This document shows positions 10,083 to 15,919 of a stretch of 64,000 nt of DNA, piece by piece (position 1 is the stretch's first letter; each line of letters opens with the position of its first letter). This stretch comes from a bacterium. Its GTDB lineage: Bacteria > Actinomycetota > Acidimicrobiia > Spongiisociales > ZC4RG35. The stretch is from contig JAPPLW010000105.1 of the NCBI GenBank assembly GCA_028819345.1, positions 1-64,000 of the forward strand. The letters run 5' to 3'. Made by a program: the position numbers and the translations under genes. The notes below the pieces were generated by a model that saw nothing but the letters and a program-made list of their open reading frames with translations, was not told the DNA's origin and made no database searches.

Positions 10083-10844
10083 CTAACCGTCCAGCAAGAC
10101 GTCCAGTCCTACCGAGACCCCGCTGTCCAATCCCGACACTCCCCGTACAGCAAGCATCACACCGGGCAGGAACGAAACCCGGTCCGTGGAGTCATGGCGG
10201 ATGGTGAGGATCTCGCCGGGGTTGCCGAACAGCACCTCTTGGTGGGCCAGCAAGCCGGGAAGCCGCACCGAGTGGACCGGAACACCCTCCACCCGGGCGC
10301 CCAACGCGCCCGCGTACAGTTCGGCCGAGGAGACCTGGCGGGACTGGCCTCCGGTCTCGGCCATCCCCACCGCGGTGGACACCGCGGTACCCGAGGGGGC
10401 GTCGGCTTTCTGGTCGTGGTGGAGTTCGATCACCTCGGACGCCGCAAAGAACCCGGCCGCGGCACGGGCGAAGCGCATCATCAGCACCGCCCCGATGGAG
10501 AAGTTGGGAACGATCAGACAGTTGGTCGTGTGATCGTCTCCCCACAGTCCGCGTACCGAGGCGATCCGCTCGGCGGTGAAGCCGGAGGTGCCCACCACCG
10601 CATGGCACTCCATGTCACGGTAAAGGGCGAGGTTGCCCATCACCACCTCCGGATTTGTGAAGTCGACCACCACTTCCGCCTCAGCCAGGCATGCGACATC
10701 CACCCGGACCGGGGTTCCCGCCACCTCGCCTTCGACAAGGTCGTAGCCGGCCACCAGTTCCATGTCCGGAGCCTCTGCCACCGTCTCGGCGATGAGCGAC
10801 CCCATCCGGCCCAGCGCACCCGCCACCCCGACGCGGACCGTCAT
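10083..10844 (-). CDS. dapB: 4-hydroxy-tetrahydrodipicolinate reductase
   Basis: DapB reduces the cyclic DapA product in the diaminopimelate/lysine pathway, feeding peptidoglycan and lysine synthesis. The 253-residue length is typical. The N-terminal Rossmann motif is GVAGALGRMG. The catalytic signature ELHHDQKADAPSGTA holds the conserved His and Lys, and VPNFSIGAVL and GTSGFTAERI are also family landmarks. The ATG overlaps the stop of the M16 peptidase gene as ATGA, so both are probably cotranscribed. In other actinobacteria dapB also lies in the same general neighbourhood as an M16 peptidase (PepR) gene. Confidence 0.96.
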   Translation of the reverse strand: MTVRVGVAGALGRMGSLIAETVAEAPDMELVAGYDLVEGEVAGTPVRVDVACLAEAEVVVDFTNPEVVMGNLALYRDMECHAVVGTSGFTAERIASVRGLWGDDHTTNCLIVPNFSIGAVLMMRFARAAAGFFAASEVIELHHDQKADAPSGTAVSTAVGMAETGGQSRQVSSAELYAGALGARVEGVPVHSVRLPGLLAHQEVLFGNPGEILTIRHDSTDRVSFLPGVMLAVRGVSGLDSGVSVGLDVLLDG

Positions 10845-12094
10845 GTGATGTACCCGGTCAGGTCCGACTCCGCGAACGGTCCCACCACTCCCAGGGTCTT
10901 GGGGCCCGAGAAGAGTTGACGGGCCACTTCGGTGACGTCGGAGCGATCCACCGCCAGGATGCGTTCCAGCCTCTCGTCCATGGAGTAGTGCTCTAGCCCG
11001 CAGATCTCGTCACGCCCCAGATGGACCATCCGACTCTGGGAGTCCTCCATCGCCATGGCCAGGGCTCCCCGGGCCGCCCCCCGCGCCTTCTCCAACTCCG
11101 CCTCGGTTATGCCTTCGTCCATCAGCCGAGAAAGCTGGCTGTCGATCAGTTCCATCACCTCGGCGGTCTGCCGGGGGGTGGTCCCCACATAGATCCCCCA
11201 CACACCCGAGTCCGCATAGGAGTGGTTGAAGCTGAAGATGGAATACGCCAACCCCCGCTCCTCCCGAACGCTGGTGAACAGGCGGGAGGACATCCCCCCA
11301 CCCAGCACCAGATTGAGTATCCCGAACGCCCACCGCCGCTCGTCAGCCCGGTCCATCCCCGCCCCACCCAACACCAGGTGAGCCTGTTCGGTGTCCCGCT
11401 CCACCAGGCCCACCGCAGCGGACGGCGAGTTGGAGGAAAAGCTGTGACCCACCTCGCCTCCCGACCACTCCCCGAACAAATCCTCAACCAATTCCAGGGC
11501 CCCCGAATGCTGCACGGCCCCCGCCAACGCCACCACCACCGAATGCGGGCCGTAGCGTCGACTCCAATACCCCTCCAGGTCGGCTCGGGTCATCGCCCCG
11601 ATAGACTCCCGGGTACCCAGCACGGGACGTCCCAGGGCATGGCCGTCATGAACTGTCCGGCTGAAGGCTTCGAACGCCGAGTCCTGAGGATCATCCTCCC
11701 GCATGTTGATCTCCTCGAACACCACCTGCCGCTCCGAGTCGATCTCGTTCTGGCGGAAGGCGGGGCGCTGCAGCATCTCGGAGAGGAGGCGCATCCCGAC
11801 CGGCAGGTCGTCGTCCAGCAGCCGCGCCCAATAACAAGTCTGCTCCTTGGATGTGAAGGCATTCGACTCCGCACCCATCCCATCGAAGGTCTCGGCGATC
11901 TGGCGGGCGGAAAGCTCCTCGGTGCCCTTGAACAGCAGGTGCTCCAGAAAGTGGGAGGCGCCGGCCTCGTTGGCGCGTTCATCGCGGGCGCCGGTGTCAA
12001 CCCAGCACCCGACCGACACCGAACGGAGCGCAGGCATCTCCTCGGTGATCAGCCGCAAACCGTTGTCCAAAGTGGAGAGACGATAATGAGTCAT
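10841..12094 (-). CDS. M16-family zinc peptidase (PepR/processing-peptidase-like)
   Basis: This is a 417-residue M16 metallopeptidase. The inverted zinc motif HFLEH (HxxEH) lies near residue 50 in GASHFLEHLLFKGT, with the distal Glu in the following helical region. SVREERGLAYSIFSF is the usual C-terminal-half signature (R..GLAY). M16B enzymes are cytoplasmic peptidases of unclear substrate. The frame stays open far upstream, but the protein starts naturally at ATG 12094 (MTHYRLSTLDNGLR), as in relatives. Its start lies against the start region of the divergent VWA gene, so the two share a very short promoter region. Downstream it is coupled to dapB. Confidence 0.93.
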   Translation of the reverse strand: MTHYRLSTLDNGLRLITEEMPALRSVSVGCWVDTGARDERANEAGASHFLEHLLFKGTEELSARQIAETFDGMGAESNAFTSKEQTCYWARLLDDDLPVGMRLLSEMLQRPAFRQNEIDSERQVVFEEINMREDDPQDSAFEAFSRTVHDGHALGRPVLGTRESIGAMTRADLEGYWSRRYGPHSVVVALAGAVQHSGALELVEDLFGEWSGGEVGHSFSSNSPSAAVGLVERDTEQAHLVLGGAGMDRADERRWAFGILNLVLGGGMSSRLFTSVREERGLAYSIFSFNHSYADSGVWGIYVGTTPRQTAEVMELIDSQLSRLMDEGITEAELEKARGAARGALAMAMEDSQSRMVHLGRDEICGLEHYSMDERLERILAVDRSDVTEVARQLFSGPKTLGVVGPFAESDLTGYIT

Positions 12095-12142: not shown

Positions 12143-14179
12143 ATGCCCACCCGCTCGGCCACCGTTCTCCACCGGCTCCTCTCCTCGGAGGAGACCACCA
12201 TAGAAGACGTGGTCAGCCGCTACCAGCGGGTGGCGCCCGCCATAACCCGGTTCGCCCGCACCCTCTCGGGAGACCCTGAACTGCGGGTCAGGCTGGGCTC
12301 CCACTCCCACCGCGCCGTCGGCGAGGTGGTGTGCGACCCCCGCCTCTTCCAGAACGCCTACCAGCGCCGCGCCCCGGTCACCCCCGAAGAAGTGGCGGTG
12401 GCGTCCGCCCTTCACGAGGTGGTGCATCTTCTCTCCAGCCGGTTTGAGGAGAAGCGGCCCGTCCCGGGGCACTGGTCCAGCCTGCTCGGAGAGGACGCCA
12501 CCCGCCCCGCGCCCATCCCCGACGATCCGGTGGACCTGCTGACCGCCCTCGAGCGGACCGGAGGCGAACTGGCCGTGCTGTTCTTCTTCGCCCTGGAAGA
12601 CGCTCGCCAGGAACACCGGGGACTGGTCAACTATCCGGGCGCCCGTTCCATTCTCGACGATCTCTACCGGGCGGCGGTCCCCGCCCTGGAGTCCCAGCCC
12701 GACCTGTCCCAGTTTGTGGCCGGATGTTTCCTGGCGGCGGCAGGGGCTCTCTCCGCCCGCCGGCCACCCGACTTCGTGAGCCGACCCGCGGCAGACGCCA
12801 TCCGGGACGGAGCGCAACTCCTGTCCCAGGTCCCCGTGCTCGCCGACCCCTGGGAAGTGGGAGAGACAGCCCTCGCCATGCTGCGGATCGCCATGGACCA
12901 ACGCCTGGTTCCTCCCACGCTTCCCCGCGAGCCCTCCGCCGGGAAGGCAGTCACCGAAAAGGCTGCCGAGACCCTGGACATGGTTCGCCTCCCCAGCCCG
13001 GCGGTGGCGGACGCCGAGTCCCACCTGGAAGCGGTCGGCGCCGAGAACGGCGCCGGGAGAGAAGCCCAGCTCTCCCGGGAGACCGACCAATCCAGCACCG
13101 ACCAGCTGCTGCGGGTGGGAGCGGCTCCTCTCATCCACCTTCCCACCGGCCAGAGCGGTCGGCTGTTGATCTCCCCCGCTCCGGCCGCCTTCTCCCGGTT
13201 CGCCGAGAAGGGACGGGAGGCCTACCGTCGCTCCGCCGAGCAGTGGGGGGTGGTTCCCCGGCGGGTGTCCGGAGAACTGTTCCATCTCTTCACCGCCAAC
13301 CAGAGGCGGGGACTGCGTTCGGGATTCGACCAGGGAGACATCTCCCCCTATTCGGCCCTCTTCATCGGCGCCGGTCTCTACCAGCGCCTCTATGAGAGGC
13401 GTCATCTGCCCACCCGGCGCCACTACGCGGTCAGCGTGCTGGTGGACGGTTCGGCCTCCATGCTGCAGTCCCGGCGTTACGGTCCCACCGGAAGCGGATG
13501 GGGCATGTCCGCCGCCCTGTTGGGCGCCTGGACCGTGGCCGTGCTGTGCAACGAACTGCAGATCGACTTCGAGGTGAGCATATTCAACCGGTCGTTCGCG
13601 GCCCGCCAGCAGGACACCGAGTGGTCGTACACCCGGTCTCTCAGCCAGTCCACGGCCGGTCTGAGAGCCAGCCACGGGGAATCCGCCGAGCGGCTCACCA
13701 CCACGGTCAACCACTATCTGATCAAGCCCTTCGACAAGCGATGGGCGAGCGCCGAGGAGATACTGGCGGGTATGCTCTGGACTGCCTCAGCGCCCCGTAA
13801 GGCCGCTTTGGAAGCCCGCAAGAACCCCCGAACCGCACCGCCCGTCTCCATGTTCGACAAAGCCGCCAACGTGGACGAACTCAACGTCATCCACGCCGCC
13901 CAGAGAATGGCCGCCCACGGCGCGCAGACGCGGCTTTTGATAGTGCTGGCCGACGGTATGACCCGAGGATCGGTCCGCAACCTGGCCAATGCCGTCTCCG
14001 CAGTCGAGAGAGGAGGCGCCACCGTCCTGGGCATCGGGATCGGTGACGATACGGTGGCCGCCGCCTACCCGCGCCATCAGGTGGTACACCACCCCGGGGA
14101 ACTGGCCCGGGCGATGGTCAAGGGGACCAAGGACCTCCTGCGAAGGAGTCTTCACAGCCTGAAGGCGCCCGCGGCATGA
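12143..14179 (+). CDS. VWA-domain protein, CobT-like partner of an AAA+ ATPase
   Basis: The 678-residue protein ends in a von Willebrand A domain. The MIDAS motif DGSAS lies in VSVLVDGSASML, and a later Asp-containing strand reads RLLIVLADGMTRGS. The long N-terminal part contains HEVVHLLSSRF, which resembles a HExxH-like helix but lacks the canonical spacing (HEVVH). The layout, a large acidic-to-variable region and then VWA next to an AAA+ ATPase, recalls CobT/CobS and MoxR/VWA pairs that remodel or load metals into partner proteins; the target here is unknown. I chose ATG 12143 because an earlier ATG at 12086 would overlap the start of the divergent gene; either is possible. The stop overlaps the ATPase start (ATGA). 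Confidence 0.8.
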   Translation: MPTRSATVLHRLLSSEETTIEDVVSRYQRVAPAITRFARTLSGDPELRVRLGSHSHRAVGEVVCDPRLFQNAYQRRAPVTPEEVAVASALHEVVHLLSSRFEEKRPVPGHWSSLLGEDATRPAPIPDDPVDLLTALERTGGELAVLFFFALEDARQEHRGLVNYPGARSILDDLYRAAVPALESQPDLSQFVAGCFLAAAGALSARRPPDFVSRPAADAIRDGAQLLSQVPVLADPWEVGETALAMLRIAMDQRLVPPTLPREPSAGKAVTEKAAETLDMVRLPSPAVADAESHLEAVGAENGAGREAQLSRETDQSSTDQLLRVGAAPLIHLPTGQSGRLLISPAPAAFSRFAEKGREAYRRSAEQWGVVPRRVSGELFHLFTANQRRGLRSGFDQGDISPYSALFIGAGLYQRLYERRHLPTRRHYAVSVLVDGSASMLQSRRYGPTGSGWGMSAALLGAWTVAVLCNELQIDFEVSIFNRSFAARQQDTEWSYTRSLSQSTAGLRASHGESAERLTTTVNHYLIKPFDKRWASAEEILAGMLWTASAPRKAALEARKNPRTAPPVSMFDKAANVDELNVIHAAQRMAAHGAQTRLLIVLADGMTRGSVRNLANAVSAVERGGATVLGIGIGDDTVAAAYPRHQVVHHPGELARAMVKGTKDLLRRSLHSLKAPAA

Positions 14180-15189
14180 CCGACCTGGCGACCTTCGCCC
14201 ATCCTTCCGGCAGACCCGAACGGGAGATCAGCCTGGCTCCCTTCTCGGTGGCTCCCGACCTGCAGGACTACTCCCAGCGCCTGGGGAAGATCCCCGCGCC
14301 CGATCCCTATTACGTGGACCTCGGGATGCTCTATCGATTCGCGGCGCTGGAGAGGGTGCATCGCCTTCGCCCTCCGGGGTACGTCTCCCTCCACATCGCG
14401 GTCCGCGGTCACATGGGCACCGGCAAGGACCACGACATCGAACAGTTCGCCGCCCGGCTGGGACTCCCCTACTACCGGATACCCATGACCGGGGAGGTGC
14501 GGGACCTCACCCTCATCGGCTCCACCCGACTGCACGGGGACGGCAAGGGCGGCACGGAGAGCCGCTGGGAGGACGGGGACATCACCCGGGCGCTGCGCGG
14601 CCCGGCTCTCATCAACCTCTCGGAGTTGAACGCGGCCGGCGCCGAGACGCTATTTGCGCTGCACGGACTCCTCGACCGCTACGCCGCCCTGGACCTTCCC
14701 ACCGGCGAGACCATCCGGCTGCGGGACGACGTTCGCATATTCGGGACCATGAACCCGACCGACCTGAGGGACTACGCCGGCACCCAGACCCTCAACAAGG
14801 CTTTCGCGGACCGGTGGGTGATCTGGGAGAAGAACTTTCCGACCGCCCCCCAGGTGGAGGCGATGCTCCGGCGGCGCTACCCGGCGATGGTCGAACCGTT
14901 CGTCACCGCCATCGCCCGGCTCACCGTGGACATAAACGCGTCCTTCGAGGCCACCGACGCCGACACCCGCGTGGAGACCCCCATGTCCCTTCGAGGCGCC
15001 CTCGACCGGCTGCCCACGGGCCTCCGGATCTTCTCCGAGCACCCCGATCCGCTCCGCCGAGCCTGGGAGGAGTTGGTGCTCCCCAGAGTGGACCCCCACG
15101 ACCGCGACCACTACGAGACGGTGTGGCGAGCGGTGGTCCGGCAAGGTCCGAGCGGGCCGCCTTTTGGGAGGCCGACCCCAAAAACCTGA
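14176..15189 (+). CDS. MoxR/CobS-like AAA+ ATPase with altered Walker motifs
   Basis: This 337-residue protein has the layout of a CobS/CbbQ-type AAA+ ATPase: P-loop region RGHMGTGKDHDIEQ, Walker B position ALINLSELNAA, sensor-1 region IFGTMNPTDLRDYAG and an Arg in LNKAFADRW. Two key residues differ. The Thr/Ser after the P-loop Lys is Asp (GKD), and the Walker B Asp is Ser (SELN where MoxR proteins have DEIN). The P-loop Lys, the Walker B Glu position and the sensor Asn remain. It may hydrolyse ATP poorly or act as a nucleotide-sensing scaffold; this is inference. It is translationally coupled to the VWA gene and presumably forms a complex with that product. Confidence 0.82.
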   Translation: MTDLATFAHPSGRPEREISLAPFSVAPDLQDYSQRLGKIPAPDPYYVDLGMLYRFAALERVHRLRPPGYVSLHIAVRGHMGTGKDHDIEQFAARLGLPYYRIPMTGEVRDLTLIGSTRLHGDGKGGTESRWEDGDITRALRGPALINLSELNAAGAETLFALHGLLDRYAALDLPTGETIRLRDDVRIFGTMNPTDLRDYAGTQTLNKAFADRWVIWEKNFPTAPQVEAMLRRRYPAMVEPFVTAIARLTVDINASFEATDADTRVETPMSLRGALDRLPTGLRIFSEHPDPLRRAWEELVLPRVDPHDRDHYETVWRAVVRQGPSGPPFGRPTPKT

Positions 15190-15199
15190 TAGAATGGGG

Positions 15200-15919
15200 A
15201 TGGTGCGCACCATCCTCTCCGACCTCGTAGCCGAGCAGCAGTCACTGGATCAGTATCTCCAGAAAATCCCGGTGCGCGACTGGGGCACCCCCACCGCCGT
15301 CCAGGGTTGGGACATCCGGGACATAGTCAGCCATCTCGCCCACTTCGAGGAACTGACCGCCCAGACAGTGGTGGGAGAGGAGCTTGCAATCGGCGAGAAC
15401 GAAGCGGGGGACCTGCATTGGGAAGGGGTGCTGAGAGGCCGGGAAATACGACCTCAGGACGTGATCGAATGGTGGAGAAAGGGCCGCGCCCGGCTGATCG
15501 AGCCCCTCTCGGAGATGTCCCCCTCCCAGCTGACACCGTGGATGGGCGGCCAGGTGGCGGCACAGACCGTGGCTATCTATCGGTTGACCGACACCTGGGC
15601 CTACGGCCTTGACATCTACGAGGCCATGGGAGACGAGTACGAGGACACCACCCGCATCCGCCACATCTGCTGGCTGGGATGGGCCACCCTGGCCCACCAG
15701 TTCCAGGAGAATGGGGAGAACCCGCCGGTCCGGGTGGAGGTGATCGGACCCCAGTACTACAAGTGGGTGTTCGGGGAGGAGAAGTCCCCCCACCAGATCA
15801 AGGGAAGCGCCTCCGACTGGGCCCGCTTGGCCGTTCACCGGCTGGCGCCGTCTGAGACCAGCCTGGACTGCTCCACCGAAACAGCCGAGCACGCCCTGGA
15901 GATGCTCTCCGTCTACTAG
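15200..15919 (+). CDS. maleylpyruvate isomerase/DinB-fold protein (TIGR03084-like)
   Basis: The 239-residue protein resembles the actinobacterial TIGR03084 group within the mycothiol-dependent maleylpyruvate isomerase/DinB superfamily. VQGWDIRDIVSHLAHFEEL near the N-terminus carries the first metal-ligand His. The second ligand pair, usually E-x3-H in a TWAH-type motif, reads DTWAYGLDI here, so Glu is Asp and His is Tyr. Metal binding may be weakened or changed. The real reaction is unknown for most relatives. Start is placed at ATG 15200 (MVRTILSDL); ATG 15194 is equally possible. It follows the AAA+ gene closely and may be cotranscribed. Confidence 0.75.
   Translation: MVRTILSDLVAEQQSLDQYLQKIPVRDWGTPTAVQGWDIRDIVSHLAHFEELTAQTVVGEELAIGENEAGDLHWEGVLRGREIRPQDVIEWWRKGRARLIEPLSEMSPSQLTPWMGGQVAAQTVAIYRLTDTWAYGLDIYEAMGDEYEDTTRIRHICWLGWATLAHQFQENGENPPVRVEVIGPQYYKWVFGEEKSPHQIKGSASDWARLAVHRLAPSETSLDCSTETAEHALEMLSVY

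Follow-up and report, generated by a model that had tools for sequence, protein, structure and literature searches.

The window analysed here is a 64,000-nucleotide stretch of a genome from the actinomycetotal class Acidimicrobiia (order Spongiisociales; GCA_028819345.1, contig JAPPLW010000105.1, positions 1 to 64,000, forward strand), and it carries a gene pair composed of a CobT/NorD-like VWA protein and a CobS/NorQ-like AAA+ ATPase (Table 1). The ATPase passed the gathering cut-off of Pfam AAA_5 (47.5 bits against 22, E 2.4e-12) and, by this score and by its fold, belongs to the AAA_5/MoxR-type AAA+ superfamily. In an ordinary site, the Ser or Thr that follows the P-loop lysine (the K+1 residue) is a direct ligand of Mg2+ and forms a hydrogen bond with the Walker B aspartate. 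The window's ATPase matched neither the canonical Walker A pattern GxxxxGK[ST] nor the canonical Walker B pattern hhhh[DE]E; it reads GHMGTGKD in the former and LINLSE in the latter, with A144 preceding the Walker B motif (A144-L-I-N147-L-S149-E150-L-N152). The nucleotide site of this ATPase is certainly altered. The original prediction, made from the letters of the window, had reported GKD in place of GK[ST] and SELN in place of DEIN, as we confirmed, and had read them as the loss of both magnesium-coordinating positions. Both positions are indeed changed, but the residues have traded places between the motifs and are not simply missing, and the change from Ser/Thr (K+1) and Asp (Walker B) to Asp (K+1) and Ser (Walker B) is better read as an exchange than as a loss of both.

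Table 1. Features of the ATPase and VWA gene pair and its surroundings (positions are those of the window)
Feature	Position	Strand	Remark
AAA+ ATPase, CobS/NorQ-like, 337 aa	14176-15189	+	Pfam AAA_5, AlphaFold2 model, closest solved folds
Walker A, G78-H-M-G-T-G-K84-D85	14407-14430	+	Asp85 (14428-14430) where Ser/Thr is usual
Walker B, L145-I-N-L-S149-E150, then L151-N152	14608-14625	+	Ser149 (14620-14622) where Asp is usual
Asn193 (sensor 1 by position)	14752-14754	+	Invariant in family
Arg213, putative arginine finger (KAFADRW)	14812-14814	+	Invariant in family
Arg273, putative sensor 2	14992-14994	+	Invariant in family
VWA partner, CobT/NorD-like, 697 aa	12086-14179	+	PHROG matches; start is one of several possible
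MIDAS of partner, D454-x-S456-x-S458	13445-13459	+	In 149/150 stretches, gap in the remaining one
Asp623 of partner, later MIDAS aspartate (LADGMTRGS)	13952-13954	+	Label by position
HExxH of partner, H110-E-V-V-H114	12413-12427	+	N-terminal domain; 94/94 stretches reaching the N-terminus (92 distinct)
Glu176 of partner, candidate third metal ligand	12611-12613	+	94/94; invariant in alignment A2 (21 rows)
MDMPI/DinB-type gene	15164-15919		Directly downstream of pair
dapB and M16 peptidase	10083-12064	-	Divergent, upstream of pair

The exchange is fixed throughout the family. Family loci were defined as matches at E 1e-60, which gave 179 loci with identity as low as 54% and, after merging of duplicates, 120 distinct aligned proteins; K84, D85, S149, E150, N193, R213 and R273 were identical in all 179. 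The last three are residues that we take, by their positions, to be sensor 1, the arginine finger and sensor 2. Among 106 distinct loci, D85 was encoded by GAC (68) or GAT (38) and S149 by TCC (51), TCG (29), TCA (14), TCT (10) or AGC (2), and this synonymous variation indicates that the residues, and not merely the DNA, are conserved. H86 and D87, which directly follow D85, were invariant in the same 106 loci, and residue 147, two before S149, was Asn in 104 and Ser in 2. Sequencing error and gene decay were ruled out by the identical residues together with the synonymous codon changes, and the prospect that homologues would have canonical residues was dispelled by an alignment with D85 and S149 everywhere. 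The original prediction was also right that the P-loop lysine, the Walker B glutamate and the sensor-1 asparagine are retained, K84, E150 and N193 being invariant. One set of relatives consisted of 80 of 130 that were kept, and one of its six selection patterns (KDHDIEQF) favours GKD; the 30 loci from the family search and the later loci from genome searches, chosen without that bias, agree on GKD. Alignment A1 comprised the window and 23 of the 30 loci, with L011, L020, L023, L082, L102, L103 and L107 omitted for run-on or odd ends. A tree is weak at depth, with 10 of 21 inner branches open and long branches flagged, and we claim no sister group.

We then considered how widely the family is distributed. 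In the window's taxonomic family, 33 of 34 genomes gave a match at E 1e-3, 32 of these being close homologues, and in its order 127 of 138 genomes gave a match at 1e-8, among them 76 of the 78 that are near-complete, with all 61 genera represented; these order-wide matches were counted only, the residues being known where the sequence was retrieved in another search. The gene is present as a single copy in the window's genome. A class-wide search identified a second group, family f82, whose proteins are 54-59% identical to the ATPase and whose genomes carry the gene in 38 of 42 cases, including 8 of 8 near-complete ones. The f82 genomes are 0.6-1.1 Mb in size, many of them incomplete, and their loci have a guanine-cytosine (GC) content of 30-32%; a GC content of about 32.5% is given for Ca. 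Actinomarinales (PMC7771536). Family f82 probably corresponds to Ca. Actinomarinales, with which the small genomes and low GC content fit. In a phylum-wide sample, 10 of 396 genomes gave a match at 1e-10: seven belong to the order, the window's among them, and three are distant. The exchange, at the most conserved residues of the magnesium site, is real and deeply conserved, across two bacterial orders, and the family is an unusual variant within the known MoxR-VWA type.

Two other readings were considered and rejected. For a viral or plasmid origin, 403 phage and 133 plasmid records matched, and among the matches listed all were below 60% identity; a scan of viral contigs, limited to the two peptide patterns GHMGTGK and LNKAFAD, confirmed three weak relatives, which read GHMGTGK[ST]. 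As for a defence system, PADLOC gave no match for either the ATPase or its VWA partner.

The residue pair was placed among related ATPases by a motif census, in which all collected loci were scanned with a hidden Markov model profile built from family rows together with CobS, CbbQ/NorQ-type, MoxR and phage rows (a seed of 6 family rows and 18 others). Rows agreeing in their first 60 letters were merged, and rows outside AAA_5, such as PspF, were included. The census contained 168 distinct domains, of which 76 read K-D...S-E, every one of them a family member. One motif could not be read in four of the 168 rows (halves of L116 and L117), and of the 92 non-family domains 88 were readable at both; Asp after the P-loop lysine was found in 0/88, as was Ser in Walker B. 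The K+1 residue was Ser or Thr in 86 of these 88, the exceptions being Asn (gut phage, L192) and Glu (PspF), and the first Walker B position was Asp or Glu in 87, the exception being Gln (L238). Across the 76 family domains and the 88 others, the D85 and S149 changes always occurred together and neither was seen alone. Among the literature matches listed and the text passages covered, we noticed no AAA+ family with a GKD/SE pair; Kozlova et al. present K+1 and Walker B exceptions in supplementary figures.

The census also yielded several observations on other proteins. A gut phage MoxR-like ATPase (L192:2809-3732) has Asn after the P-loop lysine (GPKATGKN) and a canonical DE in Walker B. An AAA_5-type domain (L238) has Gln in place of the Walker B aspartate (VFLAQELNR). 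Glu in place of that aspartate (EE) occurred in many MoxR-like domains, including L156-L161 and L166-L169, and in 25 of the 88 readable non-family domains overall.

An AlphaFold2 (AF2) model of the ATPase, built from 24 sequences, had a predicted local distance difference test score (pLDDT) of 81.8 and a predicted template modelling score of 0.83. In this model, helix 84-95 begins at K84 and strand 144-149 ends at S149, and K84-D85 and S149 accordingly occupy, as far as a predicted structure goes, the positions normally taken by the K+1 residue and by the acid of Walker B. The closest solved folds were CbbQ2 (6l1q; Z 22.2, root-mean-square deviation 3.0, 263 residues) and NorQ (9qh4; Z 21.0); in Foldseek, NorQ was the top match (1.5e-15).

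The pairing with the VWA protein is real. In all 150 stretches, counting the window and its duplicates, the VWA open reading frame (ORF) lay on the strand of the ATPase, and in 147 of 148 loci a possible ATPase start was found no more than 30 bp from the VWA stop; in the window the VWA stop and the ATPase start share 4 bp (ATGA, 14176-14179), an arrangement suggestive of translational coupling. The partner matched the CobT-type families phrog_5298 (1.8e-6) and phrog_17276 (1.5e-5), as well as phrog_1576 (4.2e-10), in a PHROG search whose query began three codons upstream of the chosen start, and 6 of 21 members gave a weak Pfam CobT match (best E 0.009). The window's own copy gave no Pfam VWA match; its orthologue in L172 passed at 27.1 bits (cut-off 23.8). 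The metal-ion-dependent adhesion site (MIDAS) is intact in 149 of the 150 stretches. The ATPase therefore has an adjacent VWA protein with an intact MIDAS, as in NorQD-type MoxR-VWA machines, and the tight coupling to an intact VWA partner described in the original prediction was borne out.

The N-terminal domain of the partner contains an HExxH motif. Of the 150 partner stretches, 56 end short of the N-terminus, and the remainder carry the motif together with E176; the domains of the window and of f82 share only 16-21% identity, yet H110, E111, H114 and E176 are invariant. Alignment A2 comprised the window and 20 of the 37 loci tried. An AF2 model of the domain (pLDDT 82.0) places HExxH in helix 100-117 and E176 in helix 151-180. 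Structure searches with it gave a best Foldseek E of 0.2 and a best VIA-align Z of 5.7 (3cmn), with no significant solved-fold match that would indicate a zincin fold, and the 14 rows of a PDB sequence search, all above E 0.1, were mostly ferritins and included CobT (21vu) at 0.34. A metal site in this domain is likely, with HExxH...E176 as the candidate. As a separate observation, HExxH is also found in a phage CobT (L193:2382-4334) and in a haloarchaeal VWA partner (L194:4482-6629); it is absent from the CobT-type ORFs of L149, L152 and L195.

We also examined the neighbourhood of the pair and the rest of the genome. A divergent dapB lies upstream in at least 56 of 98 stretches (13 of 13 in f82; many stretches are short), and an MDMPI/DinB-type gene lies downstream in at least 75 of 98 (again 13 of 13 in f82). 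Pfam confirmed a divergent M16 peptidase for both the window and L046; in f82, dapA stands beyond dapB in its place, and M16 did not adjoin the pair in the two f82 stretches listed (L183 and L176). Pfam further identified downstream genes of the LOG type in L046 and BtpA in L183, which fall into one merged cluster (91 of 98 stretches) that holds no count per gene; neither was seen between or just after the window's pair and the downstream MDMPI/DinB-type gene. Among the identified neighbours (8 stretches listed, 6 proteins scanned) there was no nitric oxide reductase (nor), Rubisco (cbb) or chelatase gene. A second, canonical ATPase, the existence of which the original prediction had left as a question, is present in the window's genome: it has one AAA_3-type MoxR (L115; AAA_3 E 1.7e-60, GKT and ADEINR) and additional AAA_5 domains that read GKT and DE, among them L116 and L117.

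The most likely reading, in which we have about as much confidence as doubt, is a working AAA+ motor of the CobS/NorQ (MoxR-VWA) type with an inverted magnesium/proton pair. D85, after the P-loop lysine, would take the Mg2+, and S149, which closes the Walker B strand, would serve as its hydrogen-bond partner, so that the partners would be swapped and the charge and pairing of the site preserved. Glu150 would position the water as before, and N193, R213 and R273 would act in their usual roles. The ATPase is thus predicted to hydrolyse ATP and to form a ring, and the ring would drive the adjacent VWA protein, with its MIDAS and its N-terminal HExxH...E, to remodel a client, which may be metallated or cleaved. 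That the other catalytic positions are frozen favours this reading over a non-hydrolysing sensor. We extend it only tentatively to the statement that the whole lineage runs a core AAA+ motor with a reciprocal swap, in which Asp after Lys is the direct Mg2+ ligand, Ser is the Walker B partner and hydrolysis is intact.

A precedent for half of the exchange is available in PspF, whose Walker A motif is GERGTGKE and which hydrolyses ATP; its authors assign to E43 the role of the usual Thr (PMC3419264). The E43D variant, which reads GTGKD, had a Vmax of 22.26 per min compared with 39.51 for the wild type (about 56%), and its open-complex formation was wild-type-like (PMC3419264). The activity of E43D shows that Asp after the P-loop lysine is compatible with hydrolysis. 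With regard to the earlier suggestion of altered or lost hydrolysis, the altered site is therefore certain, whereas a loss is unsupported in view of this activity and of the invariant E150, N193, R213 and R273.

Several points weigh against a working motor with an inverted pair. The PspF Walker B variant D107A, in which the Walker A glutamate is intact, had a Vmax of 0.23 per min (PMC3419264), and its near-inactivity indicates that an acid after the lysine does not by itself replace the Walker B aspartate. We found no active precedent for Ser replacing that aspartate, so that hydrolysis may have been lost. Kozlova et al. (2022) proposed the K+1 Ser/Thr and the Walker B Asp as a universal proton-handling pair of P-loop NTPases, and the portions of their paper that we drew on name only Glu as a Walker B substitute and a few K+1 exceptions, mostly Gly in nucleotide monophosphate kinases (PMC9599734). 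The co-occurrence of the two changes is confined to a single clade and thus represents one event, not repeated covariation, and no one-change intermediate was found in the census of 168 domains. Moreover, the AF2 model is free of ligand, and its stretches 107-113, 115-131 and 197-203 have pLDDT below 50; a NorQD-type helix-2 insert that contacts the VWA finger would lie roughly at the first two of these.

Among the alternatives, an ATP-driven two-part metalloprotease, in which the ring would feed clients to a zinc site of the partner formed by HExxH...E176, is compatible with a working motor, and we regard it as possible but doubtful. The presence of HExxH and E176 in 94 of 94 partners despite the low identity of the domain is consistent with it, as are the HExxH in the phage CobT of L193 and in the haloarchaeal VWA partner of L194, a Pfam SprT-like match in 3 of 21 partner members (best E 0.03) and a structural resemblance, although a very weak one, to selecase (4qhf, Z 3.7) and abylysin (4jiu, Z 2.8). 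However, the best fold matches (Foldseek E 0.2; VIA-align Z 5.7 to 3cmn) are non-significant, the CobT-type ORFs of L149, L152 and L195 lack HExxH, and the motif could instead be metal-sensing or structural.

The ring may, alternatively, be a nucleotide-binding switch or scaffold that binds ATP, with or without Mg2+, and assembles on the VWA protein without hydrolysis, close to the nucleotide-sensing or scaffold subunit of the original prediction; we consider this rather unlikely. Both Mg2+-defining positions are altered, replacement of either residue is reported to abolish activity in other P-loop enzymes (PMC9599734), and PspF D107A and E43A fell to 0.23 and 1.37 per min against 39.51 (PMC3419264). 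Yet Asp at K+1 was tolerated in PspF E43D, and E150, N193, R213 and R273 are no less fixed than K84 across the 120 distinct proteins, which leaves a sensing or scaffold role unsupported. A dead site would also be expected to vary at S149, where Ser is instead maintained through five codons.

An active ATPase that uses another metal (e.g., Mn2+, Zn2+ or Ca2+) or another nucleotide, with H86, D87 and N147 helping to form the Asp/Ser site, appears improbable. The invariance of H86 and D87 (106 of 106) and the near-invariance of N147 (104 of 106) would suit such a site, and the partner too has an invariant candidate metal site; against this, H86 and D87 may serve a neighbouring subunit or the fold. 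A mixed ring, in which a canonical AAA+ ATPase would perform hydrolysis alongside the variant one, would draw on the MoxR L115 and the AAA_5 domains L116 and L117 of the window's genome, but it is very unlikely: in a search of f82 genomes for AAA_3 alone, 7 of 8 lacked a match at 1e-6 and the eighth barely passed (5.7e-7), while the pair is kept there.

If a working motor with an inverted pair is indeed what the family encodes and it hydrolyses ATP, the Walker B carboxylate would be dispensable and the near-universal Ser/Thr-Asp pair invertible; if it does not hydrolyse ATP, the family would represent a frozen non-hydrolysing MoxR-VWA machine. Either outcome would inform the contested P-loop mechanism, and the family offers a natural test of ATP splitting in the AAA+ class. 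The analysis also draws attention to a VWA-AAA+ system, core and uncharacterised, in bacteria that are probably abundant marine Actinomarinales.

Compared with known systems, the nearest named sequence families by single domain are CobS and CobT of aerobic cobaltochelatase and phages. Profile searches matched the ATPase to CobS (9ujv, 6.3e-18), midasin ranking higher only when several domains were summed, and to phage CobS (phrog_249, 1.1e-25); unlike the window's ATPase, the CobS-like proteins L149-L154 read GK[ST] and DE. The ATPase missed the NCBIfam PD_CobS cut-off (49.3 bits against 558.55), and none of 15 genomes (10 from the order and 5 from f82) contained CobN, while the positive control was found in 5 of 14 named genomes; a cobaltochelatase role was ruled out by this score and the absence of CobN. 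The best distant match in the phylum-wide sample, a MoxR-like relative from another actinobacterial family (f39, L131/L132; 36% identity, 3.4e-25), shares the GH-G-GK, ELNA-G and NP motifs with the window's ATPase but has a canonical GKT and Glu in Walker B, and its nearby MIDAS-like ORF lies on the opposite strand and lacks HExxH.

The NorQ/NorD and CbbQ/CbbO systems have in common with the window's pair both the fold and the pairing with a VWA-MIDAS protein, although the CbbQ/NorQ-type relatives examined have Ser/Thr after Lys and Asp in Walker B. An active client of NorQD depends on both the NorQ Walker B glutamate and the NorD MIDAS (PMC9976466), and the VWA finger occupies the AAA+ pore (PMC13036017). 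The sigma-54 activators (PspF/NtrC) likewise have an acidic residue, Glu, after the P-loop lysine and hydrolyse ATP, but PspF retains the Walker B aspartate, and Sigma54_activat was absent from the Pfam matches of the window's ATPase at E up to 1. Since the K+1 rule is already broken by these activators, the new element of the present family is the matching Ser in Walker B.

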